This document shows, piece after piece, positions 37,567 to 57,116 of a stretch of DNA of 64,000 nucleotides (the first letter of the stretch is position 1; every line of letters starts with the position of its first letter). Where the stretch lies: NCBI RefSeq assembly GCF_014697615.1, contig NZ_JACJSD010000006.1, positions 62,001 through 126,000 of the forward strand, given 5' to 3'. Below the pieces are notes generated by a model. It had not been told where the DNA came from. It was given only the letters and a program-made list of their open reading frames with translations, and ran no database searches. Both the position numbers and the translations under genes were made by a program. The DNA comes from Nostoc sp. FACHB-280 (GTDB lineage Bacteria; Cyanobacteriota; Cyanobacteriia; Cyanobacteriales; Nostocaceae).

Positions 37567-37638
37567 GCCAGCATAGCACAGTGGTAGTGCATCCGACTTG
37601 TAATCGGAAGGTCGCAGGTTCAAATCCAGCTGCTGGCT
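37567..37638 (+). tRNA. trnT: tRNA-Thr (anticodon TGT)
   Basis: A 72-base cloverleaf: acceptor GCCAGCA/TGCTGGC, D stem GCAC/GTGC, anticodon stem TCCGA/TCGGA with loop CTTGTAA (anticodon TGT, reading ACA), and T arm GCAGG-TTCAAAT-CCAGC, discriminator T; CCA is not encoded. The T stem has an A-A mismatch (37616 with 37628) where CCTGC would be expected. The D and anticodon stems show compensated changes, so the gene looks maintained. It is followed after three bases by a CAST-like transposon end. Confidence 0.95.
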
Positions 37639-37640
37639 TT

Positions 37641-37742
37641 TGTACACTCGCAGATTACATGTCGCAATTTGCAAGTTAATGTCGCTTTGACTGTTTTTAG
37701 ACTCAATATTGATTGACCAGATTTTTCGCAAATTAATGTCGT
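37641..37742 (+). mobile_element. Solitary end of a type V-K CRISPR-associated (Tn7-like) transposon
   Basis: Starting three bases after tRNA-Thr, TGTACA is followed by three direct copies of a motif: CGCAGATTACATGTCGC (37649..37665), TTGCAAGTTAATGTCGCT (37669..37686) and TTCGCAAATTAATGTCGT (37725..37742). A TGTACA terminus plus repeated TTAATGTCG-type TnsB sites is the hallmark of type V-K CAST ends, and these elements insert just downstream of tRNA genes. No tnsB, tnsC, tniQ, cas12k or CRISPR array, and no opposite end, is in the window. The distance from a GTA trinucleotide at 37584 to the junction is 54 bases, in the range known for V-K insertion. This suggests a remnant. Confidence 0.7.
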
Positions 37743-37917
37743 TAGAGGGATGAGATTGGTATGAGGAAGGGATCGCTATTTCTCAACCTATATCTCATGT
37801 ATTAACTGCTGATTACCTAACTAATGCAGCAAAATTACAAGAATCTTAAGATTTTGATAGACTTAATGTCCAGTTTGCGTTTAAAATACACTAAGCCGAG
37901 AGGAATAGTGTGTATTT

Positions 37918-38379
37918 ATGGAAAGCGCCCAAAAAGCTAGTCAAGAGTTGAGTTTAGCAGTAAATACAGCCCCAGAGCGATCGCCCCAGACTGTTCCTCA
38001 AGAATCCCAGAAAAATATTTTCAAAAAGCTGAGAGGTGGATTCTTGCTGGTTTTGGGATATTTACTATCCCCTTTATGTTGGTGGAATGACATCGTATTT
38101 AATTTACCCATTGCTTACTTTTTTGGGTACTTATGTAGTTTATTTTCCCCAAAATTGCTCATACCTTGTGCCATCGTTGGTTATTGGCTGTCCAATGTTG
38201 TGGGAATTCTCTTGATGCAATATGGTTCTAAAGATATCTTTCAAAAGAATTCACAAGAACGCAACCTCAAAAAAGAACTGTTATCAGGGTTAGTTTCTTC
38301 CACAATTTACACTATCGTAATTATTTTACTGATTCAATTGAAGATACTAGAAGCACCTGTCTTATTCGCTAAGAGTTAA
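37918..38379 (+). CDS. Conserved membrane protein, unknown function
   Basis: A 153-residue protein with a ~35-residue polar N terminus, then three hydrophobic segments (~40-75 LLVLGYLLSPLCWWNDIVFN, ~80-100 and ~128-147 TIYTIVIILLIQLKIL). The N-terminal LSPLCWWND motif looks conserved-family-like, but I cannot name the family. No signal peptide or catalytic residue stands out. The ATG at 37918 is preceded by GAGAGGAATAG. It lies beyond the CAST-like end and could be host sequence or old cargo; base composition and its membrane character suggest a host gene. M1 copy D follows the stop. Confidence 0.65.
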   Translation: MESAQKASQELSLAVNTAPERSPQTVPQESQKNIFKKLRGGFLLVLGYLLSPLCWWNDIVFNLPIAYFFGYLCSLFSPKLLIPCAIVGYWLSNVVGILLMQYGSKDIFQKNSQERNLKKELLSGLVSSTIYTIVIILLIQLKILEAPVLFAKS

Positions 38380-38480
38380 TAGCAATCCGAGTTGATTTGT
38401 GAAAATTGAGAGGCTCAGATCCCCGACTTCTTTAAGAAGCCGGGGATCTTGTCGTTCACAAATGATTTAGGACTGCTATA
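38379..38480. mobile_element. MITE-like element, family M1 copy D, carrying a terminator-like hairpin
   Basis: Ends ATAGCAATCCGAGTTGATTTGTG and AATGATTTAGGACTGCTATA are M1 termini. The interior is different: a hairpin ATCCCCGACTTCTTTAAGAAGC/GGGGAT (38417..38449), also found at 53683..53711. It lies between convergent genes and may terminate both. Confidence 0.62.
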
Positions 38481-38498
38481 CTTTCTATTCCTGATTTA

Positions 38499-39305
38499 CT
38501 ATTTATAAGCTTTAAGTAATTCACTAAAATTCCAGATTTTCGGATTTTCTTTACCAATAACTAGCGGTAACTTGCCATTCCATTTTTCGATTGCTTGTTT
38601 TTGCAGTAATTCAGGAGTTAAGCCATCCCGCAATAATCTATAAATTTCCGCCTCACCTCTGGCTAAATTAACTCTTGCTTCTGCTTCTTTCACAGCTTTC
38701 AAAGCTAAAAACTCTGCTTTTTTAGCTTCTTGTTCAGCAATTTGTTTTGCTTCTACCGCCTCACCAAATCGCTCCGAAAAATGAACATGAACTAAAGAAA
38801 TATCATCAACTGCAATATGATAGCTACGTAAACGAGTAGTTAAATCTGAGTCTAAACCTAATTTGACATTTCCACGTTTAGTAATAATTTCTTCCGCAGT
38901 ATACTGGGCAATGATCGCTTTGATAACTTCTTCTACAGATGGATTAATAATGCGGGAAACGATATTTTCTTGGTTGCCAATTTGTTGAAAAATAATATTG
39001 GCTTCTTCGGGTATTATATGCCAGTTCAAAGCCACATCAGTAAACACATCTTGTAAATCTTTAGAAGCTGCTTCAGTAGATATTTCCTGTTTCTGCACAC
39101 GCACACTCAGCTTTTCAACGGTATTCACTACTGGAATAATTAAATGCAGCCCTTCTCCCAGGATTTGTTCTTGTACCTCGCCAAATTTCATTAACACCCC
39201 ACGTTCACCTGCATTCACTATCACGCAAGGCGTGAGAAAAATAGTGATTAAAACTAAAAGCGCCGTCAATTTACCAGCACTATTAAAAGCTTTATTGTTT
39301 TTCAT
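38499..39305 (-). CDS. Prohibitin-family (SPFH/Band 7) membrane protein
   Basis: A 268-residue prohibitin-like protein: N-terminal membrane anchor (~13-32 ALLVLITIFLTPCVIVNA), PHB domain (~33-190: AGERGVLMKFGEVQEQILGE, GLHLIIPVVNTVEKLSVRVQ, VALNWHIIPEEANIIFQQIG), and a coiled coil rich in Ala/Glu (FGEAVEAKQIAEQEAKKAEF). SPFH proteins form large membrane rings that shield proteases such as FtsH; cyanobacterial prohibitins are linked to photosystem repair and thylakoid integrity. The ATG at 39305 is good. Monocistronic. Confidence 0.9.
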   Translation of the reverse strand: MKNNKAFNSAGKLTALLVLITIFLTPCVIVNAGERGVLMKFGEVQEQILGEGLHLIIPVVNTVEKLSVRVQKQEISTEAASKDLQDVFTDVALNWHIIPEEANIIFQQIGNQENIVSRIINPSVEEVIKAIIAQYTAEEIITKRGNVKLGLDSDLTTRLRSYHIAVDDISLVHVHFSERFGEAVEAKQIAEQEAKKAEFLALKAVKEAEARVNLARGEAEIYRLLRDGLTPELLQKQAIEKWNGKLPLVIGKENPKIWNFSELLKAYK

Positions 39306-39558
39306 CTTCGTCTATAAAACCCACTAGTCTGGAGTAGAGTTAAAATACTCTTTTTTAAGTTGCCAACTAGTGGCTAATAATTAAATACACTAAATTGATG
39401 GGAAAATAGTTTTTATGACTGAACAAAAGTATGACATAGCCTTGTCTGCTAAACAAGCTTAGAGGATATCTGCGATCGCCTACAGTAATCCCCATAAATA
39501 CAGCACCTTGCAAGCCTGCTGAATTTTGGGATATGTATTTCATTCCACATCAGGTATC

Positions 39559-39891
39559 ATGCAATCTGTCTACGCTATTAGTAAACTAGTAGAGTTGTTT
39601 GGTGACAGGGATGGAAAGATGAAAGTTTGGATTGCTTGCTTTGTGCTATTGTTCGCGTTGGCAGAACTGTTTGACTGGTTACAAGAATTTTCTTTGCCAT
39701 TGCCCATTTATATTTTAGGTGGGGCATTTTTAGCCGTTGCTTCTAATTATGACAAGATTGTGGGTTCTTACTTGGGTAATACATCAATTGCAGCATCACT
39801 CGAAACACCACAATTAGATGTACCCACTCAACCCTTAGCCTCGATTTCTCATACTGTTGAGGATGTGCAGAAATCGGAAAACCAAGCTTAG
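39559..39891 (+). CDS. Small conserved membrane-associated protein
   Basis: A 110-residue protein with a short N-terminal helix, two adjacent hydrophobic segments (~24-40 KVWIACFVLLFALAELF, then SLPLPIYILGGAFLAVASNY) and a polar, Thr/Pro-rich C-terminal tail. I know the ALAELFxWL...SLPLPIYILGGAFLAIASNYDK pattern from short cyanobacterial proteins without assigned role. The ATG at 39559 is chosen; the frame is open to a TTG at 39526. Its 3' end overlaps that of the Lin0512 gene by four bases, tail to tail. Confidence 0.65.
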   Translation: MQSVYAISKLVELFGDRDGKMKVWIACFVLLFALAELFDWLQEFSLPLPIYILGGAFLAVASNYDKIVGSYLGNTSIAASLETPQLDVPTQPLASISHTVEDVQKSENQA

Positions 39892-40259
39892 TCTGTTTCG
39901 ATGAGGACTGTCACCGCAGCGATCGCAATTAACATATCATCATTTTTATCATTCAGAGAGGGAATCGCCCGTCCCTGAACCACCATTCCCCCAGATTCAA
40001 CATTTATCGTTTTGCGTCCAAAGGGTAGTACTGCGAGAACCTCATCTGTTCTCACTTGTTCGGGATAAGGTACTGCTACTTGCACTTCTACAATCATCTC
40101 ATTAGGATCATTCAACCCAGCCACTTCCCAGACTCCGGGTAAAGCATTGTGCGCGATCGCATTTCGGACTGCTCTTGCAGCTGCTACAGTTGGTTCCTGT
40201 CCATGCTGATCTACACCCATCCCCATCTCAATCACTAACCGTTTACGCGCCACAGTCAC
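39888..40259 (-). CDS. Lin0512 family protein
   Basis: A 123-residue protein of the Lin0512 family: KRLVIEMGMGVDQHGQEPTV at the start, AAARAVRNAIAHNALPGVWE, then VQVAVPYPEQVRTDEVLAVLPFGR and MVVQGRAIPSLNDKNDDMLIAIAAV. The family has an alpha/beta fold and an active-site-like MGxGVDxHGQ motif, found in cyanobacteria, plants and Firmicutes; no biochemical role is settled. The ATG at 40259 is followed by a basic MTVARKR. Monocistronic, with a TTACACC/GGTGAA hairpin between it and the pentapeptide gene. Confidence 0.85.
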   Translation of the reverse strand: MTVARKRLVIEMGMGVDQHGQEPTVAAARAVRNAIAHNALPGVWEVAGLNDPNEMIVEVQVAVPYPEQVRTDEVLAVLPFGRKTINVESGGMVVQGRAIPSLNDKNDDMLIAIAAVTVLIETD

Positions 40260-40422
40260 CTCCTGGAAAAGAACTAATAATAAATTGAATAGAACTTACC
40301 TATGAAAACGAAAAATCAACAGTTTGGGAAAGGGTTTAAGGGTGAAAGGTTATATGCGTGTAGATGAGAAACAACTCTTACACCTTCACACCCTTAAAAA
40401 CAACCTTTCTTCGTAATTCCTG

Positions 40423-40932
40423 TTAAGGACAAAACAAAGTATCACGGGTTTCTCGTCCTGTGGTGGGATTAGTACCTTTAGCTACCTTGCATAATTTTTT
40501 TTGTTCATCTGGACGCAACAGAACATCAGTAAAATCGGCTCCATCAATAATTGCGCCGTCAAATTTGGCATTAGCCGCAAATGCACCTTCTAAAACTGCA
40601 TTAGTCAAATTTGCTTTAATTAGACGTGCTGAATCTAACGTGGCATTTGTCAAGTCAGTTCCCTGTAAATTTGCTGACTCTAAATTGGCAGCAAAGAAAC
40701 TTACACCACGCAAGTTACTATTGCTAAAGTTACTTTGACGGAGATTAGCTTTGGTAAAGCTAGAATCTGTTAAATCACGTTCCGAAAAATCAGCGTCTAT
40801 CAATATTTCTTTGTTATATTCGAGTGCTAAAGCTGTGGGCGCATAATTAAAAGTGGCTGTGACGCTAAATAATGCCAACAGCAATAAACTGAGTATGCTT
40901 GCCCAAATGCGATCGCTTAACCTAGAATTCAT
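40423..40932 (-). CDS. Pentapeptide-repeat protein, probably thylakoid lumen or periplasm
   Basis: A 169-residue protein with a signal peptide (~9-36 IWASILSLLLLALFSVTATF then ALA) and about 15 A(N/D)LxX pentapeptides forming a right-handed beta-helix (FTKANLRQSNFSNSNLRGVS, ANLESANLQGTDLTNATLDS). The C terminus (DVLLRPDEQKKLCKVAKGTN, ending DTLFCP) with two Cys is typical of lumenal pentapeptide proteins conserved in cyanobacteria and chloroplasts. The ATG at 40932 gives a proper signal sequence; the frame 11 codons further overlaps yraN. Divergent from yraN with a 14-base spacing between start codons. Confidence 0.88.
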   Translation of the reverse strand: MNSRLSDRIWASILSLLLLALFSVTATFNYAPTALALEYNKEILIDADFSERDLTDSSFTKANLRQSNFSNSNLRGVSFFAANLESANLQGTDLTNATLDSARLIKANLTNAVLEGAFAANAKFDGAIIDGADFTDVLLRPDEQKKLCKVAKGTNPTTGRETRDTLFCP

Positions 40933-40946
40933 GGTACTTTTCACCA

Positions 40947-41474
40947 ATGGCGAATCATCCTCCATCCCATTATCTCGATATTGGTCAACAAGGTGAAGAC
41001 TTAGTTACACAATGGTTACAGTCTACAGGTTGGTTGATTTTACATCGCCGCTTTTCTTGTCGTTGGGGAGAGATTGATATTATTGCTCAGTATCAAGGGG
41101 GAGAAGGAGGAAAGAGGGGACAAGGTGGACAAGGGGGACAAGGGAGACAGCACTCAGCACTTATAACTCAGCACTCTACACTTGCTTTTGTTGAGGTGAA
41201 AACTCGCAGTTCAGGAAATTGGGATGCAGGGGGAAGAGACGCTATTACCCCACAAAAACAGGCAAAACTCTGGCGTACAGCAGAAATGTTTTTAAATCAA
41301 TATCCCGAAAACGCTGAATATCCCTGTCGTTTTGATGTGGCTATTGTGGGTTATCAGCAAATATCTAAATTAAAAACTCAAATTACTTCCACCCAAGATG
41401 CTGTATTTAGTGCATCAATAGGGGATTATAAATTTTTTCTGGAAGAATATATTCCCGCAGCTTTTGATTTATAA
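40947..41474 (+). CDS. yraN: YraN family (UPF0102) endonuclease-like protein with internal repeat insertion
   Basis: A 175-residue YraN, a Holliday-resolvase-like PD-(D/E)XK fold. The core is GEDLVTQWLQSTGWLILHRR, WGEIDIIAQ (Glu42, Asp44) and FVEVKTRSSG (Glu83, Lys85), all present. About 29 residues (50-78, GGEGGKRGQGGQGGQGRQHS then ALITQHST) are inserted between the two catalytic strands, where relatives have a short turn. The insert is encoded by a GGACAAGGG nonamer repeat plus CACTCAGCACT sequence that is intergenic elsewhere (kdpA-kdpB). The nine-base unit keeps the frame. The protein may remain folded with a flexible loop. Confidence 0.88.
   Translation: MANHPPSHYLDIGQQGEDLVTQWLQSTGWLILHRRFSCRWGEIDIIAQYQGGEGGKRGQGGQGGQGRQHSALITQHSTLAFVEVKTRSSGNWDAGGRDAITPQKQAKLWRTAEMFLNQYPENAEYPCRFDVAIVGYQQISKLKTQITSTQDAVFSASIGDYKFFLEEYIPAAFDL
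41092..41181 (+). repeat. Nonamer repeat inserted in yraN coding sequence
   Basis: GGACAAGGT, GGACAAGGG, GGACAAGGG and AGACAGCAC units follow a G-rich lead, then CACTCAGCACTTATAACTC. It is the reverse orientation of the kdpA-kdpB spacer repeat (15219..15345). It adds about 28 codons without breaking the frame. Confidence 0.75.
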
Positions 41475-41573
41475 ACTCGCTGATTAAAGTGAGGGCGAAT
41501 AATAATTGATCACAACTGAAATAGTTTGTTAGCAATTACAGATTCTTTCTAGCCGCCCTCACTATAAACAGTT

Positions 41574-41963
41574 TCACGCTAAGGTTTCTGGACAGTAGCC
41601 TAATCCACGAACAAACTGTTGGCGGAATGCTTCAATTTCTTCTCTCTCTGGGCTACCATGAGAGACGATCGCTACTTGATAGCGGCGCATTACGTCTACT
41701 GGACACTGACCAGCTTCCAAACTCCAAAGTGCCATTTGTACACGCATAGGTGGTTCGTAGCAAATTCCTAATTCATTTAGAAAAGCTCGAAAGTCCCCAT
41801 CCTGTTGCGTTGAGATTTGACCTTTAAGTTTGATCCTAACCACCCAGCCATCTATTTGATGAATCACTGTAACGAAAGAGACAGGCAACTGGGGTGTGGC
41901 GTGCAGATGTTGAACGACCCTCAATGTTAGACTAGCATTTGCCAGATAATACAAATATTCCAT
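41574..41963 (-). CDS. Conserved cyanobacterial hypothetical protein
   Basis: A 129-residue soluble alpha/beta protein: MEYLYYLANASLTLRVVQHL, then PVSFVTVIHQIDGWVVRIKL, LNELGICYEPPMRVQMALWS, and SHGSPEREEIEAFRQQFVRG at the C terminus. The family appears restricted to cyanobacteria as far as I remember; no function known. The ATG at 41963 is preferred over one 8 codons upstream because the upstream residues are unlike the rest and repeat a MALIP-type junk start. It converges with yraN. A terminator-like inverted region lies between them. Confidence 0.6.
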   Translation of the reverse strand: MEYLYYLANASLTLRVVQHLHATPQLPVSFVTVIHQIDGWVVRIKLKGQISTQQDGDFRAFLNELGICYEPPMRVQMALWSLEAGQCPVDVMRRYQVAIVSHGSPEREEIEAFRQQFVRGLGYCPETLA

Positions 41964-42035
41964 GTTGGTGCTTGGGATCAAAGCCAATCCTACACTTCTA
42001 TCATCCTCAATAGATCACTTTCGCGGTAGGGTAGA

Positions 42036-42062
42036 AGCCCCCGTCTTTGAATGGGGAGTTTT
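42036..42062. repeat. Hairpin resembling an IS200/IS605-type end
   Basis: GTAGAAGCCCCCGTCTTTGA followed by ATGGGGAGTTTTAC resembles the right-end hairpin of IS605-type elements in cyanobacteria (GTAGAAGCCCC...GGGGAGT). No tnpA or tnpB frame is near. It could be a decayed or non-autonomous (PATE-like) end. Confidence 0.35.
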
Positions 42063-42183
42063 ACCCAATTCATAACCAATCACTAGGGATTACCTAATGA
42101 TGTCCCTTGGAAAACTCTATGACTGAAATGGTGTTTTCCTTAGAAAATATCAAATAAACCCGTATAAATTAGCATAACCTTCA

Positions 42184-43323
42184 ATGGAGCCAGCAATAAC
42201 AAAAGAAAATTTTAATAAAGTTACAGATACAGGAGTAGAAGACAGACAGTTAGATTGTTCCTTAACTGGCTATGACTACATACTACCGCCAGAACTAATT
42301 GCTCAAAATCCGGTAGTTCCTAGAGATAGTTCTCGCTTATTAGTAGTCAACTCTACCGCCACAGGTAACAATTTAGCCCCGCTACACCACATCTTCCGCG
42401 ATTTACCAGAACTCCTGCGCCCTGGCGATTTGTTGGTGATGAATAATACAAAAGTTATCCCCGCCAGACTGTACGGGAATAAATCTACAGGGGCAGAAAT
42501 TGAAGTATTACTGTTAGAAGAGAGGCAAAATAACTGTTGGTTAGCTTTAGTCAAACCAGGAAAGCGGTTTAAATTAGGCTCACAAATTATTTTCTCTGGT
42601 AAAAATTCCTCTACTCCCCAATTAACAGCTACAGTTTTAGAAAATGATGCGGCGACTGGCGGGCGGTTGTTGCAATTTGATGTACCGCCAGGAAAATCTT
42701 TGGTAGAACTGTTAGATAATTTTGGTGAAATTCCTTTACCACCTTATATAACTACCACAGCCGCAGCTGATGAACAATATCAGACAGTCTATGCCGAACA
42801 ACCAGGTGCGATCGCTGCACCCACGGCTGGGTTACACTTTACTCCAGAATTACTAGCAAAGTTGCGCGATCGCAATATCCATCAAGCATTTGTCACACTG
42901 CATGTTGGTGTTGGGACATTTCGCCCTGTGGAAGTGGAAGATGTCACCACCCACGAAATGCACGAAGAATGGATTGAAGTTCCTGCGGCTACAGTAGAAC
43001 AAATCCGCGCCACGAAAGCTGCTGGGGGCAGAATTATTGCAGTTGGTACAACAGTCGTGCGCTCTTTAGAAGGTGCGGCGCAGTCTGGAGAATTGCAACC
43101 ATTTTGTGGCAAAACCAACTTATTTATTTATCCTGGCTATCAATGGCGGGTAGTAGATGGGTTAATTACTAATTTTCACCTACCGCGTTCGAGTTTACTT
43201 ATGTTGGTGAGTGCTTTAATTGGCAGACCAAGATTATTGCAAATATACCAAGAAGCGATCGCTGCCCGATATCGTTTTTATTCTTTTGGTGATGCTATGC
43301 TAATTTTGCCAGTCAGCACCTAG
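42184..43323 (+). CDS. queA: S-adenosylmethionine:tRNA ribosyltransferase-isomerase
   Basis: A 379-residue QueA, which moves the ribosyl part of SAM onto preQ1 in tRNA to give epoxyqueuosine. Family motifs are [74 protein letters not shown]-type (here [20 protein letters not shown]), and [16 protein letters not shown] near the end. The N-terminal ~30 residues before CSLTGYDY are extra compared with E. coli. The ATG at 42184 is the first start, although a later start near CSLTGY cannot be excluded. Monocistronic, with a strong terminator at 43512. Confidence 0.95.
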
Positions 43324-43327
43324 CCCC

Positions 43328-43475
43328 GACGAATGGAATTCGCGCGCCACTTGCTTCAAGTCGGGAAACCCGCCCAACGCAGTGGCTTGGCTATAAAAAC
43401 AAAGTCCGTCTACGCGGACTAACATTAAATTCAGGGTTTTTCCCTTTAGCCGCGACTTCAGTCGCTAGGTGCAAA
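43328..43475. repeat. Palindromic interspersed element, family P copy 2
   Basis: GACGAATGGAATTCGCG at the left and CGCGACTTCAGTCGCTAGGTGC at the right form the outer arms; AAAGTCCGTCTACGCGGACT is an inner hairpin. It follows queA directly. Related to 12904..13044 and 58173..58312. Confidence 0.6.
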
Positions 43476-43511
43476 ATTTGAATAAATAAACCCTGAATTA
43501 TTACGTCAACA

Positions 43512-43552
43512 TTAAAAAGAAGCCCTAGTGATAACATAGGGCTTCTTTTTAA
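43512..43552. terminator. Strong bidirectional terminator between queA and the Hlip genes
   Basis: TTAAAAAGAAGCCCTA (43512..43527) pairs perfectly with TAGGGCTTCTTTTTAA (43537..43552) around a 9-base loop, with A and T runs on both sides. It serves both the queA end and the convergent small gene at 43584. Confidence 0.88.
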
Positions 43553-43583
43553 TCTATTCAATTGATTAACGAAAACCAACGGC

Positions 43584-43823
43584 TTAACCTACATTACTGA
43601 AAAATGTTTCCCAGAGGCTGCCTACAGTTACCATAGCAATTATCAGATTAGTGAAAAACCTACCTAATTCAACGTTTTGACCCAATGTTTTGTCATCTTG
43701 ACCTTTACTAAAAAATAGTGACCAAGCTTGGTTAACATTGATTGTTTCAAAGTTGTTGAAATCAGGGCGAAAAACCACAGATCCAATCATATCTTTTTTA
43801 GGAAAATCAAAATCAGTTCTCAT
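43584..43823 (-). CDS. Small one-helix membrane protein next to Hlip
   Basis: A 79-residue protein: polar N terminus (MRTDFDFPKKDMIGSVVFRP), then LGQNVELGRFFTNLIIAMVT as a single C-terminal membrane helix ending ETFFSNVG. No chlorophyll-binding ExxNGR motif. I do not recognise the family; its position just downstream of the Hlip gene, 61 bases away on the same strand, suggests cotranscription and a thylakoid role. GAGG lies 7 bases before the ATG at 43823, which is why that start is chosen over ATG 43835 or TTG 43862. Confidence 0.6.
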   Translation of the reverse strand: MRTDFDFPKKDMIGSVVFRPDFNNFETINVNQAWSLFFSKGQDDKTLGQNVELGRFFTNLIIAMVTVGSLWETFFSNVG

Positions 43824-43884
43824 AAATTGCCTCATTAAATTTCTATTTGTTGATTGAGTCAAATTCTAAAATAGTCAAACTTAT

Positions 43885-44097
43885 CTACAGGTTTGTTAGC
43901 CAACCGATTAAGCTATGTCCGGTGATGATTTCTACAGCGATGATTGAGACAAAACCAATCATTGCCAAACGCCCATTGAGTTTCTCTGCATACTCGGTAA
44001 AACCAACTCGTGGGGTTTCTTCTACATAAACTTTTGGTTCAATTGCATAGTTGTTGAGTTGACCGAGTTCATTCATGGTGAAGCCTTTGCTGATCAT
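43885..44097 (-). CDS. High-light-inducible (Hlip/SCP) chlorophyll-binding protein
   Basis: A 70-residue one-helix Hlip. The chlorophyll-binding motif EKLNGRLAMIGF (ExxNGRxAMxGF) begins the membrane helix (~42-62), which ends ITGHSLIGWL. The N terminus NYAIEPKVYVEETPRVGFTE is of the HliC/HliA-like group. Hlips bind chlorophyll and carotenoid and protect newly made photosystem II from excess light. The ATG at 44097 follows AAGGAAAAAAGAG; a 30-codon upstream extension is AT-rich and rejected. Probably induced by high light and cotranscribed with the small gene at 43584. Confidence 0.92.
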   Translation of the reverse strand: MISKGFTMNELGQLNNYAIEPKVYVEETPRVGFTEYAEKLNGRLAMIGFVSIIAVEIITGHSLIGWLTNL

Positions 44098-44476
44098 CTC
44101 TTTTTTCCTTGGCTGGTTTATGTAACTAAATATAACAAAATGTAAATAATATTTGCAATATATTGACAAAAATAGTTTATAGTGCAAACCATACTAAACG
44201 AAGTTGTAAATACCGAACTCAAACAAAAATCAAGATTTTGCGGAGGATGAAGGCGTATAGGGGCAAAATCAAGTCAAAAATTTTCTGACTTTTGAATTTT
44301 GACTTCCCCGTAGGAGTGTATGTATCTAAAACCCTGACACCCTGTCACCGTTCGGCTGACGCTCACGGCGGAAGCCTATTACCTGTCCCCTGCTATATTC
44401 ATCTGGCACTTTTAATTTTTCCAGCTGTAGTGGGTACTCTGACATATAGAACTCACTACAATACAGGCTGCTAATT

Positions 44477-45610
44477 ATGTATAAACACCATCAAATTCGT
44501 CAGTGGTATTGCGGCTTTCCTCAGATGGCGTTTCACCAAATGATTAATTGGCGGAAGTCGCATTTAACAATCATCTCAGCGGCCTCGGCGTTTTTGGTAT
44601 TGGCTGCACCATTAGTAATAAATTTACCGGGAAGTCGGTTATTAGCAGAAAATGTGATCTCTCAAGATTTGGATGCAGCGATTTTTTACCAAAAAGGAGT
44701 GACGCTATATAACCGCAAAGATTTAGACGGTGCGGAATCTGCCTTTCGTCAAGCCTTGGAACGTGACCCAAATATTGGGATGGCGCGGAATTATTTGGGG
44801 AATATTCTGTTAAGACAAAATCGCCTGGATGCAGCAGTGCAAGAATATGGCGAGGCAATTAGAATGAACCCCAACCAAAGTGAGGTTTATTACAACTTGG
44901 GGTTAGCGTTACAACGACAAGGACAGAAAGAAGCTGCTGTCACCGCTTACCGACAAGCTATAGTTATAGATCCCAAAATAGCCACAGCCCAGTACAACTT
45001 GGGTGTATTGCTACATGAACTAGGACAACCACAAGAAGCGATCGCAGCTTATCAACAAGCGGCTAATCTAGATAGTGGTAATGAGAATACCTTTTTTAAC
45101 TTAGCGATCGCGCTGCAAGAACAAGGAAAATTAGAAGATGCGATCGCAGCTTACCGTCAAGTTATCCAACTCAACCCCAAAAATACTGTCGCCTATAATA
45201 ATATGGCTGGTTTGTTGGTAGTCCAAGGACAGACGGCTGAGGCAATTAATGTTTATAGACAAGCTATTCGCCAAAACTCCAAAGATGCCGTCGCCTATCA
45301 CAACTTAGGTATCACTTTATACAATCAAGGCGAACTCAAAAAAGCAAACGCAGCCTTGAAAAATGCCCTGAATAACTACCGCACACAAGGTAACACCGAA
45401 CAAACTGCCAAAGTTGAACAACTAATGCAGCAAATTACCCAGCAAATCGCCCAACAGAAATTACAAGAACAACAACAGCGTCAAGCAGGTAAAAAACCCG
45501 CACCAACTGAAAATGTAGCTACACCAGAACAACCCACCCCCACAACACCCGAAGGAACACCAGCTAAACCTGGAGATGTGCCGGTTTCTTTTGGACAAGA
45601 GAGTAAATAA
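44477..45610 (+). CDS. TPR protein with N-terminal signal-anchor
   Basis: A 377-residue protein with an N-terminal hydrophobic segment (~31-52 LTIISAASAFLVLAAPLVIN) and seven consecutive tetratricopeptide units from ~68 to 310, each of the AxxxYxxAIxLxPxNxxAYxNLG type (VYYNLGLALQRQGQKEAAVT, TAQYNLGVLLHELGQPQEAI, VAYHNLGITLYNQGELKKAN). A Gln-rich linker (LMQQITQQIAQQKLQEQQQR) and Pro/Thr-rich tail follow. It is an exported or membrane-tethered scaffold of unknown partner. ATG at 44477; a second in-frame ATG (MAFHQM) is possible. A large palindromic repeat follows the stop. Confidence 0.85.
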   Translation: MYKHHQIRQWYCGFPQMAFHQMINWRKSHLTIISAASAFLVLAAPLVINLPGSRLLAENVISQDLDAAIFYQKGVTLYNRKDLDGAESAFRQALERDPNIGMARNYLGNILLRQNRLDAAVQEYGEAIRMNPNQSEVYYNLGLALQRQGQKEAAVTAYRQAIVIDPKIATAQYNLGVLLHELGQPQEAIAAYQQAANLDSGNENTFFNLAIALQEQGKLEDAIAAYRQVIQLNPKNTVAYNNMAGLLVVQGQTAEAINVYRQAIRQNSKDAVAYHNLGITLYNQGELKKANAALKNALNNYRTQGNTEQTAKVEQLMQQITQQIAQQKLQEQQQRQAGKKPAPTENVATPEQPTPTTPEGTPAKPGDVPVSFGQESK

Positions 45611-45693
45611 AAAAGATAGGTGTAAGGGTGTAGGGGTGTAAGTGTTTAGAGGGTGTTTGAAAAGTGGTTGGTTGTGATTATTAGCATTTCTTG

Positions 45694-45767
45694 ATCCCCC
45701 CTAACCCCCCTTAAAAAGGGGGAAATGCTTCAAAGTCCCCCTTTTTAAGGGGGATTTAGGGGGATCT
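45694..45767. repeat. Large G/C-run inverted repeat
   Basis: GATCCCCCCTAACCCCCCTT then AAAAAGGGGGAA, and TCCCCCTTTTTAAGGGGGAT then TTAGGGGGATC, form a nested palindrome of 74 bases. This GATCCCCCTAAATCCCCCTT type is a widespread intergenic repeat of cyanobacteria. It lies between the TPR gene and the FemAB-like gene (convergent) and could terminate both. Confidence 0.75.
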
Positions 45768-45890
45768 AAAATGTTTGGCTTACCAACAATAGGATTTTTA
45801 AAACATCTTCTTAAAAACCCTTACAACATTCTCTAAAACCCTAATTTTTCATTTTCTTGCGTCAGTCCTATATATTTCATACTTCACACT

Positions 45891-47072
45891 TCACACTTGT
45901 TTTTGACTAAATGGCATTTCCTCATTAATGGCGGCAATTTCCTGCTGTTCTAGTTGATTCACCTCTTTAATATATGGAAGTAAAATTTGTGCCAGACGCT
46001 GATTGTAAAAGCGATGTAGGCTGTAATTGGGTGTAGCTGGAAATCCACGGCGTTTTTTGTGTCTACCACCTGCACCGGGATCGAATAATTGGATATTATT
46101 AGCGATCGCCCACTCAATTGGTGTGTAATAGCAAGCATCAAAATGCAGGCAATCGATTTCTTGAAAACTCCCCCAATAACGCCCATACAATCTCTCACCT
46201 TTATAAAGGCAAAAAGACATACCCACAGGGTGACGATTGTCATGTTCGCTATAGGCAGCAAAAAACACCACCCGATGGCGATAATCGGCGTGTAGCTGTT
46301 CAAAAAATTGCTTTGTTAAATACTTACTGCCCCACCAGCCAAACTTATCACAAGTATCGGCGTAAAATTGGTACATCAAGGGAAACAAAGATTTAGGAAT
46401 GTCATCACCAGTGATTGGCTGTAGTCTTAAACCCGCCTTTTCCACTGCTTTCCGTTCCCGCTTGATATTCCGGCGCTGATTGGCGTTGAAAACTCCTAAA
46501 TAATCGTCAAAATTATTAAATCCGGTATTTTCCCAAATATAGCTGTGGTGCAACCAAGAACTAAACCCGTTACGTTCCAGAACTGGCCGCCATTCGGGAT
46601 CAACATAGAGAAAGTGACAACCAGAAATGCGGTATTTGTTGCAGAAACAGTCAATTTCATGCACCATCATGGCGGTGATTTCGTCTTCATCTTCTCCTGG
46701 CGCGATTAAGAAGCGATAACCTTCAGCCGGTGTAAAGGGAGCCATCCCCAAGAGTTTAGGATAATACTGCACACCGATGCGATCGCTTAATTCTGCCCAT
46801 TGATGATCAAAAACAAATTCACCATAACTATGTCCTTTTAAATATAAAGGCGCAGCTGCAATCAAGGTTTTGTCACGCCACAAAGTTAAGTGATTTGGCA
46901 ACCAACCAGTTTTGTCTGTAGCACTATGGGAAGTTTCCAAATTTTTTAACCATTGCCACTCCAAAAACGGAGTTTTCAAGGGCAGTGCTAAAGCATCCCA
47001 GGCACTTTGCGGGACTTCGGCAATTTTATTAATCCAGGCAACAGAATAGCGCGGCTTAAGTTGTTCCACCAT
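45891..47072 (-). CDS. FemAB-like/GNAT-fold peptidoglycan-type aminoacyltransferase homologue (DUF482)
   Basis: A 393-residue protein of the FemAB_like (DUF482) family, with a double GNAT-type fold. Visible blocks are WDALALPLKTPFLEWQWLKN, APLYLKGHSYGEFVFDHQWA, FNANQRRNIKRERKAVEKAG, MYQFYADTCDKFGWWGSKYL, and LYGRYWGSFQEIDCLHFDAC...LFDPGAGGRHKKRRGF. Family members are predicted N-acyltransferases; the substrate is unknown. The ATG at 47072 is chosen because the 19 codons further upstream translate a TGTGAAG-type repeat. It is just downstream of the RibD-C gene on the same strand and may be cotranscribed. Confidence 0.85.
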   Translation of the reverse strand: MVEQLKPRYSVAWINKIAEVPQSAWDALALPLKTPFLEWQWLKNLETSHSATDKTGWLPNHLTLWRDKTLIAAAPLYLKGHSYGEFVFDHQWAELSDRIGVQYYPKLLGMAPFTPAEGYRFLIAPGEDEDEITAMMVHEIDCFCNKYRISGCHFLYVDPEWRPVLERNGFSSWLHHSYIWENTGFNNFDDYLGVFNANQRRNIKRERKAVEKAGLRLQPITGDDIPKSLFPLMYQFYADTCDKFGWWGSKYLTKQFFEQLHADYRHRVVFFAAYSEHDNRHPVGMSFCLYKGERLYGRYWGSFQEIDCLHFDACYYTPIEWAIANNIQLFDPGAGGRHKKRRGFPATPNYSLHRFYNQRLAQILLPYIKEVNQLEQQEIAAINEEMPFSQKQV

Positions 47073-47136
47073 CTTTTTCAAGGATGAAGTATGAAGTGTG
47101 AAGTGTGAAATTGATTTGTCAGACTTCACACTTTTC

Positions 47137-47832
47137 TTAGTCTAATGTTCGTTGCACTTGATAGTGTAAAAAGACCTCTTGCTCAACTTGCTTAACTTCC
47201 AAAAGTTTGAGCCGAGGAGCTAGATTCGCTAGAAATCCCTGTCCTTCTACTGGTGTACGTGCTGTAGTCCCACCTAAAATCAACGGGCAAACAGTCAGCC
47301 AAAATTCGTCTATTAAATCTGAGTTAACCATAGAAGCTACTAATTGACCACCACCTAAGACCGCTAGGCGTGTTATATCTATAGATGCCAAATGCTGTAA
47401 AAAAGCAGCAGTGTCAATTTTTCCAGTTGAGGTTTCAAAAACAAAAATCTGTTCAAAAAATTCTGAGCGTTTTTGCCAAATCGTTGCTCCCACTGTTGTT
47501 GTCAATAACCAACGTGGGATAGGCTGGTTAAAAAACTTGATTTCCGGATTAAAATCCGCAGACTGTGTAATCACTATATGAACCGGCTGGGGAGTCTTCC
47601 CCGCTTTGATTCGATGTTGCAGCAGTGTTGGATGTGATACGGTTAATGTCGTACCGTAAGCACGCAGTGTACCAGCACCGAAAAGAACGGCATCAGAGGC
47701 AGCGATTTGTGTTTCCAGGTGTGCTTTATCTGCCACAGAGCCAAATCGAGCAGGCGATCGCCTAAAATCTGCTATTTTGCCATCTGCACTCATTGCCAAA
47801 ACTACTGTGGTATGAGGACGATGTTGCGTCAT
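47137..47832 (-). CDS. RibD C-terminal/dihydrofolate reductase-fold reductase
   Basis: A 231-residue stand-alone RibD_C domain, the NADPH-dependent pyrimidine reductase fold of riboflavin synthesis. Start HTTVVLAMSADGKIADFRRS, then SDAVLFGAGTLRAYGTTLTV, a Rossmann-like RLAVLGGGQLVASMVNSDLI and EFWLTVCPLILGG are characteristic. No deaminase domain is attached, so it may act with a separate RibD-type deaminase or on another pterin-like substrate. The ATG at 47832 precedes MTQHRPHTTV; 21 codons upstream are rejected. It is the upstream gene of a likely pair with the FemAB-like gene. Confidence 0.85.
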   Translation of the reverse strand: MTQHRPHTTVVLAMSADGKIADFRRSPARFGSVADKAHLETQIAASDAVLFGAGTLRAYGTTLTVSHPTLLQHRIKAGKTPQPVHIVITQSADFNPEIKFFNQPIPRWLLTTTVGATIWQKRSEFFEQIFVFETSTGKIDTAAFLQHLASIDITRLAVLGGGQLVASMVNSDLIDEFWLTVCPLILGGTTARTPVEGQGFLANLAPRLKLLEVKQVEQEVFLHYQVQRTLD

Positions 47833-48133
47833 TGGGTTGGTTTGATAGTCTGAGGATTTTCTTGCTAGTGTGTTGATTGTAAAAAATCTTTGCACAGCAA
47901 GCTACTGTTTACCAATTTCATTACTTTACTGTTATGCAACATAAGCCGCGATTACATCTAGTACATAAGAGTTTTGGTATACGATATTTCTTTTTGCACA
48001 TTCAATGTTTGATACTGTTAGGGATCGTCAATAAAACCCTCCCAACGTAACAAAATGTCTCATTTAGCTAATCTAATTGCATATTGTTTGCTGTTGTGGT
48101 TTGCAGATGTGAAGTGAGACAGTGAGACACCCG

Positions 48134-50113
48134 ATGGCTAAGTCCCGTCAATCGTCGTTTAGACGTATTTTAGTAACAAGAATTTTGCTGCTGTTTGTCC
48201 CAGTGTTGTTACTGGGAGAACTTGTGGCTTTAAATAAAGCACGTTCTAGCTTGCTAAAAACTGCACGCCAAAATCTGACAGAAAGTGCAGTTCTCAAAGG
48301 AGAGAAAATAGCTAATGAGATTGCTAGTCTCAAAACCAGTTTATTAATTGCCAGTAAAACATCGGTATTGGGAAAAGGTTCAGAGGCTGAAGTCCAAAAC
48401 TTTATTAGTCAGATAGTTCAAGAATTACCAACCTACGTTGAATGTCTACAATTATCTGATTTGGAAAACGGCACTATCATTGCTAGTAGTTGTGGTGACA
48501 AACCAATCAGAGAACCAAAACTACCCTTTGTGACTGATAGTCCAGTCGAAATCAATCCAGTACTACCACCCAAAGCAGGTACCACTGGTCAAAGAGATAC
48601 AGAAAATCAGCTGCAAATGGTTCTCTCTGCCCCGGTTTACAATCAAACTGGGCAGTTAAAGTATGTTTTGAGTGTGCAATCATCGCTATACAAGCACACC
48701 AAAAATCTCCCAGGCTCACTCACAGGTTCTACATTGGTAATTGCTGACGATGGCACAATCTTGGCACACCCCATACCAGAGAGAATTAACAGCAATATTC
48801 AAGAATACCCTGATGCCAATAGTTTGCAAAGCATTATTCAAAATGCAATAACAGGTCAAAGCAACTCTGTCAACTTATCGTTTCAAGAAGGTAAAGAATT
48901 AGTTGCTGGCTATAGTGTAATTAGCAATCCGATCGCCAAACAACCACCACAATGGATTATCTTAGCCGTTACCAGTGTAGATAATGCCCTGTTTGGTTTA
49001 GAAGAAATTAAATTGATTTTGATAGTGCTAACAGTGGGTTTGATTGGTGCAACTTTGTTAGCATCTTTATACTTGGCTCCTTATTTAGCAGGCCCTGTAG
49101 AAGAATTGCGGGATTATGTGCTGAACATTCACAGTCATCATGCAGCCCAAACAGTACCACAGACTTTTAAAATTCGGGAGTTTAATCAACTAGCACAAGC
49201 AATTGACCAAATGTTTGACAGGCTGAAAGCTTGGGCGGAAGAATTAGAAAGTGCTTGGAAAGAAGCTAAAACAGCCAACCAAATTAAAAGTCAGTTTTTG
49301 GCGACAACTTCTCATGAGTTGCGTAACCCCCTGAACATTATTATTAATTGTGTACGCCTCGTGCGAGAAGATATGTGCGATAACCGCGATGAGGAAATGG
49401 AGTTCCTCAAACGCGCTGATGAAACCGCCATTCACTTGCTAGGAATTATCAACGATTTACTGGATATTTCTAAAATCGAAGCCGGGAAACTTTCTGTGGT
49501 TTCCGTCCCAATGGATTTACGACAAACACTGTTAGAGGTGATTAATATCCAATCAGTGAATGTGCAGCAAAAAGGCTTACAGTTAAAAACAACTTTGGGT
49601 AATGAGCCGATTCCAGTCAAGGCAGATGCGGCTAAACTGCGCCAAGTATTAATTAATATTATTGGTAATGCTACTAAGTTTACTGATGAAGGCAGTATTG
49701 CGATCGCCGCTATTATTGAACATAGTAATCACCATTCGCAAGTTGTTGTTTCTGTTACCGATACAGGTTTAGGAATTGAACCATCCCAACAACACAAGTT
49801 ATTTCGTCCCTTTGTACGGATAGATGGTGGCTCAACACGTAAATTTGATGGTACAGGATTAGGACTGGCAATTTCTCGCAACTTAATTGAACTGATGGGT
49901 GGTAGCATTTCCTTAGAAAGTGCCGGTCTAAACCACGGAACCACGGTTAAGATTACTTTACCCATTATAGATAGTGAGAATGGGGAAAATTTTAAACCTA
50001 CCTCTGAAGAAGCGGAAATCCCAGAGGTAGATTCTTTTGACCAAACTCAAGCCGCAAAATCTCAGTTAGATAACTATCAACTACCATTAGTAGAAAATCT
50101 CTTCAAAAGTTGA
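48134..50113 (+). CDS. Sensor histidine kinase with Cache domain
   Basis: A 659-residue membrane kinase: N-terminal helix (~15-35), periplasmic double-Cache-like domain (~40-290, with STLVIADDGTILAHPIPERI and QGSNSVN...GYSVISNPIAKQPP), second helix (~300-325), HAMP, then HisKA with His394 in TTSHELRNPLNII, and HATPase with NIIGNATKFTDEG, DTGLGIEPSQ, GTGLGLAISRNLIELMGG. There is no receiver domain, and no response regulator is adjacent, so the partner is elsewhere. The ATG at 48134 is taken; a GTG at 48122 is in frame. Ligand unknown (Cache domains bind small molecules). Confidence 0.93.
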   Translation: MAKSRQSSFRRILVTRILLLFVPVLLLGELVALNKARSSLLKTARQNLTESAVLKGEKIANEIASLKTSLLIASKTSVLGKGSEAEVQNFISQIVQELPTYVECLQLSDLENGTIIASSCGDKPIREPKLPFVTDSPVEINPVLPPKAGTTGQRDTENQLQMVLSAPVYNQTGQLKYVLSVQSSLYKHTKNLPGSLTGSTLVIADDGTILAHPIPERINSNIQEYPDANSLQSIIQNAITGQSNSVNLSFQEGKELVAGYSVISNPIAKQPPQWIILAVTSVDNALFGLEEIKLILIVLTVGLIGATLLASLYLAPYLAGPVEELRDYVLNIHSHHAAQTVPQTFKIREFNQLAQAIDQMFDRLKAWAEELESAWKEAKTANQIKSQFLATTSHELRNPLNIIINCVRLVREDMCDNRDEEMEFLKRADETAIHLLGIINDLLDISKIEAGKLSVVSVPMDLRQTLLEVINIQSVNVQQKGLQLKTTLGNEPIPVKADAAKLRQVLINIIGNATKFTDEGSIAIAAIIEHSNHHSQVVVSVTDTGLGIEPSQQHKLFRPFVRIDGGSTRKFDGTGLGLAISRNLIELMGGSISLESAGLNHGTTVKITLPIIDSENGENFKPTSEEAEIPEVDSFDQTQAAKSQLDNYQLPLVENLFKS

Positions 50114-50439
50114 GCATCTGCAACAGACAAAAGAATTTTATAAAAATAGCGGGCATTGCTGAATGAGGGGATGAATTTGATGTCTTGGAAATTTTTAACT
50201 CCTTATTCTCTCTGCGTCTTTGCGCCTCTGCGTGATATAAATCATCCCGCAATTATGCAACGCCAAATAGCGGTAGTCAATCAGATTAGGCAAGTGTTGA
50301 TAGCTGAAAGCCTTGATCATAAATTCGTCTGAACTACTTAACCTTTTATTCTATTTTTCTTAACCTCTAAAGATAACTTCAAAGTTTATTTAAGTGATAT
50401 TGCCACATCATTTACTTTTGAGCTTTGGAGCTTGGTCTG
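50114..50439. repeat. Intergenic gap with GGCATTGCTGAAT-type element
   Basis: From about 50152 to 50267 the gap carries GGGCATTGCTGAATGAGG, CTCTGCGTCTTTGCGCCTCTG and GATATAAATCATCCCGC, then a loosely inverted end TTGCATAATTGCGGG. The same composition occurs at about 11431..11550. The last 150 bases are AT-rich and presumably hold the promoter of the PEP-CTERM gene. Confidence 0.5.
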
Positions 50440-50997
50440 ATGAAATCATCTCAATACTTGGGCATTGCTAGTTTAGCGATCGCTCTATCTTTAGCGACTG
50501 TTGAAGTTAAGCCAACACAGGCGGCGGTATTTAATTATAATTTCACTACAAATGTGACTTCTGGTGCTAACCCTGGTCAATATTTTGGTTCATTGAGATA
50601 TGATGACACTAACTTAACTGGTGTTGGTGCAGAAAATCTTGATGTCAGCAATGGATTATTATCTGTTGTGTTTGATTATCTTGGTACTCGTTATACAGAA
50701 ACTGATGATGTTGATTTTCCCGCCGGAATTGCACCCATAGTTAGCTTTAACAATGGTAATTTTGTCGGACTCAGCTACTTAGTAGAAGATCAGTTTTTCA
50801 TTGGTGATGTTAATAATCCCTTAACTGGCGGAAATCGCTTTTATAGCATTGTCAGTGCTGACTTAACATCTGCAACAGAAACAGGCACAGTGACTTACAC
50901 TAGAGTTCCAGAACCCTTGGCGCTTGTAGGAACAGCGATCGCTACAGCTACCGGATTTTGGGTAAATCGTAAGAAAAAAGCATCGGTAACACAATAA
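50440..50997 (+). CDS. PEP-CTERM sorting domain protein
   Basis: A 185-residue exported protein: signal peptide (~1-30, LGIASLAIALSLATVEVKPT then QAA), a beta-rich middle (NYNFTTNVTSGANPGQYFGS), and a C-terminal PEP-CTERM tag RVPEPLALVGTAIATATGFW followed by NRKKK. Such tags are processed by exosortase and anchor or export proteins linked to exopolysaccharide. The ATG at 50440 has TTGGAG about 10 bases upstream. It is monocistronic with a good terminator (51003). Exact function unknown. Confidence 0.9.
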   Translation: MKSSQYLGIASLAIALSLATVEVKPTQAAVFNYNFTTNVTSGANPGQYFGSLRYDDTNLTGVGAENLDVSNGLLSVVFDYLGTRYTETDDVDFPAGIAPIVSFNNGNFVGLSYLVEDQFFIGDVNNPLTGGNRFYSIVSADLTSATETGTVTYTRVPEPLALVGTAIATATGFWVNRKKKASVTQ

Positions 50998-51002
50998 AAA
51001 AG

Positions 51003-51028
51003 TAGGGTGGCTAATCATCGCCACCCTA
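51003..51028. terminator. Terminator between convergent PEP-CTERM and phoX genes
   Basis: TAGGGTGGC (51003..51011) and GCCACCCTA (51020..51028) form a perfect 9-bp GC-rich stem with an 8-base loop, followed by TTTAATAA. It sits 6 bases after the + strand stop and 31 bases from the - strand stop. Confidence 0.85.
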
Positions 51029-51058
51029 TTTAATAACACTCCTGTTACTGAAACTTAT

Positions 51059-53407
51059 CTAGACAAATCTGCCATTAATTGGGTTGCGGCGTTGGATACC
51101 AATTACCGATGGACGAGGAGCGCCTTGGGGTTGACCTTGAATATTGCTAGGCCAACTACTACCACGAGGAACAGTACGAGTCTGATTGAATAGCGTACCA
51201 TCCAAAGCCAACATTTCTATTGAGCGGCTGAGAATTGTCCCATCATTAATTGGGGAATCTTCACCAGGATGCTGGACGGAAATAATCAGTGTATCGCCCA
51301 CAAAAGTCGGCCCTGTCATTTCACAACGCACAGGCCCTTGAGCAAATGGAAAGACTCTTCCCGCATCAGGGCCACTGGTGGGGATAAAGAACAGCCAATT
51401 ATTACCAAACACACCCGTAAAACTGGAGATATTACCCGTACTTGTGTGATTGATAGTTGTGGGATTACCAGCAGCACCAACGTTAAAACCGTTATGGGTA
51501 CCGGTGGACATATCCGTTACACCCCAAACGTTGGCTTGATTATCAAATACTAAGTTGTCTACACTGGCAAAACCAGCACCATCTTCTGCTCCGGCTTCAC
51601 CACCTTGAACAAATCTTTGCCATCTAAAGGTGAGTCCAGTGCTATCTGCACTATCTTCAATAATTTTGTAAAGTCCGCCTGACTGTTGAGTAGCATTCAC
51701 AGCAGCACTTAACTTAGCCACTTGGAAAATGCGAGAATCAGGATAACCGTCACTTCCAGGCGCACCATCAGTGTACGAAATGAAGACTTCTCTGCGATTG
51801 ATAGGATGTATTTCCAAATCTTCTGGGCGGGCGGTAGGAGTTCCCCCAATTAAGTTAGCAGCGAGGAACGCATCGCAGAGAACCGCACCTTGGCTAGTGT
51901 AGAAATCTTGGAGTGTTCTACCTTGATAATCTGGTAAGGCTATAGCTTCGTTAGTGCGATCGCAATTAAATGCTCCACCATTAACAGTCTGTCCAGCCAC
52001 ACCATTACGTCTGGGTAGTGGTAAACGACCTTGATTTTGTGCTACACCACGCGCCGCAAATTCTACAGATGAAATTACAGAAGGGGAGAGCGGGTTTGTG
52101 GGGGTATTGAGCCGTAAAGGTAGCCATTGGCCTGTACCATCTGGATTGTAACGAGCTACATAGAGAGTACCGCTTTCCCATAAATTGCTATTTGCTTTAC
52201 TGGTGGGTGAAGTCACAACAGCATCACTAATAAATTTCCATGTGTGTCCGCCGCGTCGATCATCACCCATATAGGCAACTAATTTTTTCCCAGCTTCCAC
52301 ACGCATAGTAATGTTTTCATGGCGGAAACGACCCAAAGCTGTATGTTTGCGGGGACGGAAATTGGGATTAGCTGGGTCAATTTCTACCATCCAGCCATAT
52401 TTTTCGCCAATTAAACCAAACCTTTCTCCAGTTGTTTCAGGGGTGTAACCTGTTTGAGAACCATTAGGTTGGACTGCTTCTGTCACACCGACAAAAAAGG
52501 CAGAAGCACCTTGGAAGTTTTCTTCCGCAGATAAGATTGTTCCCCAAGGTGTTGTACCACCAGAACAGTTGAACGCAGTACCAATAATTTTGTTACCCAA
52601 TCCATCAGCATTTACACTTTCAAATACTTGGGTTGCAGCTGGGCCAGTACCATATAAATAATTTTGGTCGCCTTGTTGATAGCTAAGAGTTCCCCAGCTA
52701 GTAACGCTTTGATATCTATCGGTTCTTTGGCGGTTGATTCCCAAGCCAGACAAACCATGAATCCGACGATTTCGGGGATCTCTAACTACGGTAAAACGTC
52801 TAGCAGAGTTGCGGCGAGAGATGCGAACAATTGAACCGCCTACGTTGTATAAAAATTCTCCATCTAGTTCCACACCTCTGGTTGCTGGTAAAGACCGACC
52901 AATGACTGGTGGAAATGTTGTTGGTAGCCCTTGAACATCAGCAGGCGCTTCTGGTGCTAAAGCCGAAAGGGGAAAACCAACATATTCATGATTCACCCAC
53001 AAAAAGCCTTCATCATTGGTTCTGCCCAGAGGAATGAAACCAGTGTAGTCGCAGTTGTACCCAAAATATTCATCAGGGTTGGGAAACACGCGATCGCCCC
53101 AACTGACGATAATGTAACGCTCAAATTCTGGCGGTACAATCACATCATCAACAACATTGTAGCTAGGCAAATTGGGACTGGTAGAAGGTGCAATTACTTG
53201 TCCTTGTCCAATTCCTGTTGGTAAGAAACTAGGTTGAGTTTGATAAATCGGTAAAGGATGCGGTAAACGTACTGGTGTAAAGCTTAGTGGAGTTGTTGTT
53301 GCCTCGGCGACATTAGACAAACCTGTTAAAAGTTTGTCTCCCAATACAGCAGCCCCCGCACTGCCACCAAAAAATATAAGAAGTTGTCTTCGACTTAATG
53401 TAGACAT
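51059..53407 (-). CDS. phoX: PhoX-family (DUF839) exported alkaline phosphatase
   Basis: A 782-residue secreted protein of the PhoX family, Ca/Fe-dependent phosphatases that release phosphate from organic esters. The Tat-type signal is at the N terminus (SRRQLLIFFGGSAGAAVLG). Conserved pieces include FGYNCDYTGFIP, NEGFLWVNHEYVG, GTILSAEENFQGA, FRHENITMRVEAGKKLVAYM, GDDRRGGHTWKFIS, RPEDLEIHPINRREVFISYT and DNLVFDNQANVWGVTDMS, which carry metal-binding residues. The ATG at 53407 is preceded by GAGGA; a TTG one codon earlier is less likely. Probably induced by phosphate starvation, but no Pho box was found. Some family members are not phosphatases. Confidence 0.88.
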   Translation of the reverse strand: MSTLSRRQLLIFFGGSAGAAVLGDKLLTGLSNVAEATTTPLSFTPVRLPHPLPIYQTQPSFLPTGIGQGQVIAPSTSPNLPSYNVVDDVIVPPEFERYIIVSWGDRVFPNPDEYFGYNCDYTGFIPLGRTNDEGFLWVNHEYVGFPLSALAPEAPADVQGLPTTFPPVIGRSLPATRGVELDGEFLYNVGGSIVRISRRNSARRFTVVRDPRNRRIHGLSGLGINRQRTDRYQSVTSWGTLSYQQGDQNYLYGTGPAATQVFESVNADGLGNKIIGTAFNCSGGTTPWGTILSAEENFQGASAFFVGVTEAVQPNGSQTGYTPETTGERFGLIGEKYGWMVEIDPANPNFRPRKHTALGRFRHENITMRVEAGKKLVAYMGDDRRGGHTWKFISDAVVTSPTSKANSNLWESGTLYVARYNPDGTGQWLPLRLNTPTNPLSPSVISSVEFAARGVAQNQGRLPLPRRNGVAGQTVNGGAFNCDRTNEAIALPDYQGRTLQDFYTSQGAVLCDAFLAANLIGGTPTARPEDLEIHPINRREVFISYTDGAPGSDGYPDSRIFQVAKLSAAVNATQQSGGLYKIIEDSADSTGLTFRWQRFVQGGEAGAEDGAGFASVDNLVFDNQANVWGVTDMSTGTHNGFNVGAAGNPTTINHTSTGNISSFTGVFGNNWLFFIPTSGPDAGRVFPFAQGPVRCEMTGPTFVGDTLIISVQHPGEDSPINDGTILSRSIEMLALDGTLFNQTRTVPRGSSWPSNIQGQPQGAPRPSVIGIQRRNPINGRFV

Positions 53408-56791: not shown

Positions 56792-56796
56792 TCATC

Positions 56797-57093: not shown

Positions 57094-57116
57094 AATTATG
57101 TAAAAATTCTTACAAC

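Follow-up and report, generated by a model that had tools for sequence, protein, structure and literature searches.

A decayed left end from a type V-K CRISPR-associated transposon behind tRNA-Thr, next to a probably rearranged flank, in Nostoc sp. FACHB-280

The DNA analysed here, referred to as the window, is a stretch of 64,000 nucleotides (positions 62001-126000 of contig C70 in genome G000, a draft assembly of 113 contigs), and it raises the question of how a single end of a CRISPR-associated transposon (CAST) could come to stand alone directly behind a tRNA gene. The window was compared with a genus set of 11 genomes (G000-G010), to which its own genome belongs, and all window features given below lie on the forward strand. 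As evidenced through comparison of these sequences, positions 37641-37743 can with near certainty be regarded as the decayed left end (LE) of a type V-K CAST at its homing site, and it is highly probable that the remainder of the element at tRNA-Thr was lost by rearrangement.

The left end and its homing site

The tRNA-Thr gene called by ARAGORN (anticodon TGT; 37567-37638) is the CAST homing target. A preliminary description of the locus placed the sequence TGTACA three bases after this gene, and it is indeed found there (37641-37646, with the tRNA ending at 37638 and two T between them), forming the tRNA-side terminus of the LE remnant (37641-37743). Three direct copies of a repeat motif had also been described, of which two are exact copies of GCAnnTTAnTGTCG, namely the second and third TnsB-type repeats at 37671-37684 and 37728-37741, but the first (37650-37664), reading GCAGATTACATGTCG, is one base longer, with one additional base separating TTA from TGTCG. 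This longer spacing is also present in the outermost site of most relatives. The terminal TnsB-type site as a whole, TGTACACTCGCAGATTACATGTCG, occupies 37641-37664; the second repeat could be aligned with both G007 and G008, and the third with G007.

Together with the two preceding T (37639-37743), the remnant is identical at 98 of 105 positions to the LE behind tRNA-Thr in G007, where a guide, an array and cas12k accompany it, and the homology reaches 37743, one base beyond the limit given in the preliminary description, corresponding to about 103 bp of LE. The local alignment of these two ends scores 175, whilst the maximum in 500 dinucleotide shuffles was 41; far from being unlike any CAST end, the repeats are homologous to those of the G007 CAST. 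A 24-base terminal LE pattern, allowing up to 3 mismatches, gave 24 matches in 10 of the 11 genus genomes and none in a reversed control, and the window copy matches it with 0 mismatches. The short motifs taken singly are not enriched in the window, with 7 occurrences of TGTACA (shuffle mean 16.87) and 16 of the repeat motif at up to 2 mismatches (shuffle mean 16.48). TTAATGTCG, on the other hand, was found five times where the shuffle mean was 0.54 and none of 100 shuffles reached 5, and two of the five copies fall inside the LE remnant.

In the general V-K plan, as given in PMC9938897, the LE faces the tRNA and targeting involves a GTN PAM and a 17-nt anchor spacer, with PAM-LE distances of 46-82 nt and one exception at 147. 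The window agrees with this plan: the PAM GTA lies at 37584-37586, and its distance of 54 nt to the LE junction, as previously claimed, is inside the published range and at the lower end of the 54 to 66 nt measured for 13 of 15 oriented ends (two tRNA-Leu ends gave no value). The 17-nt anchor protospacer (37587-37603) recurs unchanged in the anchor guides of G007, G002 and Anabaena sp. 4-3 (L170). Its proposed position in the anticodon arm holds in that it covers the anticodon, but it starts at the end of the D arm. Within the genus set, a search for the guide pattern that allowed up to 3 mismatches gave matches in two of the 11 genomes, G002 and G007, in both cases beside tRNA-Thr; at this threshold the window's own genome contains no tRNA-Thr guide. 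As for the tRNA itself, the stem of the T arm (37615-37632), written GCAGG/CCAGC, has an A-A mismatch common to most genus copies, and reads GTCGG/CCGAC in G005 and L170.

Elements and stubs behind tRNA-Thr in related genomes

Comparison with relatives, which had been proposed as a check, revealed both an occupied and an empty site. In G002, a whole CAST is present at tRNA-Thr, in the order LE, guide, array, cas12k, cargo, tniQ, tnsC, tnsB and right end (RE), with ACTTA on both sides as a 5-bp duplication; its cas12k scores 977 bits to NF038191, and tniQ, tnsC and tnsB were identified through Pfam TniQ, TniB and Mu-transpos_C, respectively. The LE of this element is of another subtype than that of the window. 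The tRNA-Thr site of G003 is empty and reads ACCTA. In G007, tRNA-Thr is followed by the LE and then, on the other strand, by the 17-nt guide, which a truncated repeat precedes, and by array repeats and a cas12k interrupted by a single stop (TAG), and in Anabaena sp. 4-3 the LE, guide and cas12k likewise stand behind tRNA-Thr.

Across the genus set, 300 bases behind tRNA-Thr were inspected. An LE of the window's subtype is present in four of the 11 genomes (G000, G006, G007, G008) and one of the other subtype in a single genome (G002), with no LE in these 300 bases in the remaining six (G001, G003, G004, G005, G009, G010), so the sequence after tRNA-Thr is not one that all relatives share. In G001 (L006/L042), decayed repeats of a CAST array, together with a far-end-like site, stand about 170 bases after tRNA-Thr without an LE, and are another CAST relic at the same tRNA-Thr.

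Solitary LE stubs occur behind tRNA-Thr in G006, G008 and L168, and the stub in the window is therefore not exceptional among relatives. G006 has a second stub behind tRNA-Pro, and it keeps its LE although no cas12k or TnsB was found in its genome, which indicates that stubs outlive the elements they came from. A scan of named genomes with the LE pattern returned five records, three of them probably those of G006, G007 and G008, and a plasmid search with the G007 LE and guide returned 10 records, each matching the tRNA part only. The final 49-50 bases of tRNA-Thr also recur on their own, in L029 (G004:C93:30712-30761) and at G009:C129:4633-4681, and one might guess that these are traces of integrase-type islands at tRNA-Thr. 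Behind tRNA-Val in G007, a region of about 480 bp with no protein gene (L199; G007:C110:108873-109352) contains a CAST end, a guide matching tRNA-Val and a few array repeats, followed by a 51-bp near-palindrome in which two terminal sites stand inverted to each other; it looks like a guide-carrying mini-CAST relic.

The relocated flank and the missing remainder

From about 37752 on, the DNA corresponds to a different chromosomal locus than the native flank of tRNA-Thr. The start of this relocated flank (37752-38382), comprising intergenic DNA and an ORF at 37918-38379, was matched by BLAST from 37796-37847 onward and aligned by eye over 37752-37795. In G003, G007, G008 and G009 its head-to-head neighbour is a small gene, here called P, and in G003 this flank lies megabases from tRNA-Thr; the P gene of G000 is found at C70:131.64 kb, immediately adjoining an insertion sequence (IS) remnant of 490 bp. 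The native neighbour of tRNA-Thr, here called X, is found behind the tRNA in G003 and G010 and behind the CAST in G002, and in G000 it is located, inverted, at C70:48053-56498. In G001, 34 kb separate the edges of this segment, and its downstream end is the one beside P. The segment between the LE and the IS remnant (about 32 kb) is taken to be inverted relative to relatives, as its edges are oppositely ordered relative to P in G001; the comparison of its interior covered 37796-57109. Near its start, about 75-105 bases at window 38379-38484 have many matches across the genus genomes and represent a dispersed repeat family.

The earlier suggestion of a remnant, or an element reduced to one end, thus stands as regards a decayed LE, but this is not mere reduction, as a foreign locus follows from about 37752. 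The missing far end is explained by the rearrangement breakpoint at which the LE stops, and since the sequence behind it comes from another locus, no far end would be expected downstream.

Between the LE and the relocated flank lies AGAGGGAT (37744-37751), possibly, though weakly, an 8-bp scar of the end of an IS701-like element. It is identical to the end of the IS remnant (C70:131152-131640), and three of the six related copies examined also end in it; by itself, AGAGGGAT occurs twice in the window. The frame in the IS remnant corresponds to an IS701-like DDE transposase, below the NCBIfam cut-off, and one candidate for the other end of the IS701-like element, in the composite L157, differs in sequence. 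Whether such an element took part in the rearrangement is close to an even question, and its role is something we infer, as the 8-base match is short. The IS remnant was also considered as a tnsB-side CAST end, given a related copy near cas12k (G004:C13), and this was dropped on the basis of its IS701-like DDE transposase.

The lack of a transposase, Cas12k and second end, noted earlier for the window, extends to C70:2001-166000, where there is no cas12k, tnsB, tnsC or tniQ and where the only near-perfect terminal site is that at 37641, two other matches having 5 mismatches. A whole-genome search for intact CASTs and the opposite end yielded two CASTs of another subtype. With up to 3 mismatches allowed, G000 matches the 24-base LE pattern at three places, two of which, with 3 mismatches each, are ends of the other subtype, leaving no second end of the window LE's subtype at this threshold. 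The only cas12k genes are on C22 and C25; their products are about 59% identical to the G002 protein, for which the value with G007 Cas12k is 86%. When G000 was searched with the TnsB of G003, taken for the window LE's subtype since both G003 ends match the 24-base pattern with 0 mismatches, two transposases (44-45% identity), one remote match (28%) and one fragment of 34 residues on C92 were found.

The two resident V-K CASTs (L035 on C22, L037 on C25) have cas12k and arrays; that on C25 stands behind tRNA-Leu(TAG), and that on C22 behind an apparent split tRNA-Leu without an ARAGORN call. CAST pieces were also observed on C92 (L217:11306-12272, that is G000:C92:111306-112272), consisting of toxin-antitoxin-like cargo and a TnsB fragment of 43 residues. 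The cargo is 94% identical to the G007 element over 709 bases; these pieces adjoin DNA flanking the tRNA-Pro CAST of G001, and may derive from the lost element or from a different one.

A non-autonomous, MITE-like element would require two close inverted ends and was rejected, there being no second end on C70:2001-166000. More broadly, the LE could be a functional non-autonomous element or mark, in which binding by a resident TnsB gives target immunity to tRNA-Thr or mobilises the LE. TnsB is able to bind a single end, and target immunity has been suggested for V-K CASTs (PMC9527255 and PMC11406308, respectively), and two other CAST transposase sets are present in G000. However, the two resident LEs align to the window LE with a score of 25 each, below the shuffle maximum of 41, the resident TnsBs are no more than 44-45% identical to that of the window LE's subtype, and the tRNA-Thr guide is gone from the genome. 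The LE stubs of relatives, moreover, vary in length down to a single site, including in G006, and a functional role is thus very improbable; the remnant is most likely inactive now. Equally little credence can be given to an assembly artefact in which the LE or its downstream flank was misjoined. Whilst mobile elements favour misjoins in a draft of this kind, the reciprocal junction is consistent with the join of LE and flank, LE stubs stand behind tRNA-Thr in independent assemblies, and no long repeat bridges the join, as the LE stretch occurs once in G000.

It is also conceivable that the CAST itself rearranged the chromosome, as a V-K element without TnsA transposes replicatively and intramolecular homing onto tRNA-Thr could invert or delete DNA and leave the LE attached to the tRNA on one side and to foreign sequence on the other, with the copies decaying later. 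The position of the LE exactly at the synteny break would fit this, as would the replicative transposition with cointegrates described for V-K systems in PMC11406308 and the element flanks in G001 and G003, in which visual inspection showed no evident pair of matching 5-bp repeats. Against this, the scan of C70:2001-166000 found no right end or element copy at the junctions at 56.5 kb and 131.6 kb, and the IS remnant is present at the reciprocal junction. X is also absent from the inspected stretches of G001, G004 and G005, all without an LE behind tRNA-Thr, and lost synteny is therefore common here. Rearrangement by the CAST is accordingly considered unlikely. The wider proposal, that solitary LEs behind tRNAs are scars of replicative homing, each stub marking an inversion or deletion caused by the element, with the tRNA-LE joint persisting since no deletion can extend into the tRNA, is viewed as decidedly unlikely.

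Proposed history and relation to known systems

Building on the homology to a guide-bearing CAST LE, the PAM and its distance, the intact element and empty site in relatives, and the foreign synteny, the insertion mechanism and order of events behind a rearranged V-K insertion may be envisaged as follows. Following the known V-K route, Cas12k, with TniQ, TnsC and TnsB, would have been guided to the GTA PAM by a short anchor crRNA in which 17 nt of tRNA-Thr are copied. TnsB would have joined the LE 54 nt from this PAM, immediately beyond the 3' end of the tRNA, which would have stayed intact. A later break of the locus inside the element would then have led to the joining of the tRNA and 103 bp of LE to a remote part of the chromosome, comprising at least the window from 37752 onward; the opposite edge of this part would lie about 32 kb away next to the IS701-like remnant, and the rest of the CAST would have been lost from the tRNA-Thr locus.

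The LE stub is a fossil of an already known type of element, ordinary in kind; what is new here is that the LE appears to end at a rearrangement breakpoint, with the DNA from about 37752 apparently derived from another locus. Such stubs record past guided insertions after the guide and genes have been lost, and as they persist without these, tRNA 3' flanks can reveal the history of CAST homing, even for a genome such as G006 with no detected cas12k. The foreign synteny behind the window stub also offers a concrete case for the question of whether CASTs without TnsA rearrange their native hosts, a question that a review regards as unsettled for cointegrates (PMC11406308). Degenerated cas12k copies are mentioned in PMC9938897. 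No description of solitary CAST LE stubs was found in the accessible parts of these two papers, PMC9527255 and other listings; most subscription papers lay outside this scope, and it is not claimed that such stubs are unpublished.

Amongst the relatives, the G007 CAST resembles the window in the tRNA and LE, but still has its anchor guide, array and a cas12k, albeit interrupted by the TAG. The stubs of G006, G008 and L168 are of the same subtype as the window LE, also with no cas12k found in the stretch inspected, and differ from it in length, being reduced to roughly a single site in G006 and L168 and longer than the window's in G008. With the general plan of V-K CASTs, as set out in PMC9938897, the window has in common an LE downstream of a tRNA, the TGTACA terminus, TnsB-type repeats, a GTN PAM 54 nt before the end and a protospacer within the tRNA, but of a V-K CAST only 103 bp of LE is present, with no array, cas12k, tnsB, tnsC, tniQ or right end at the locus.
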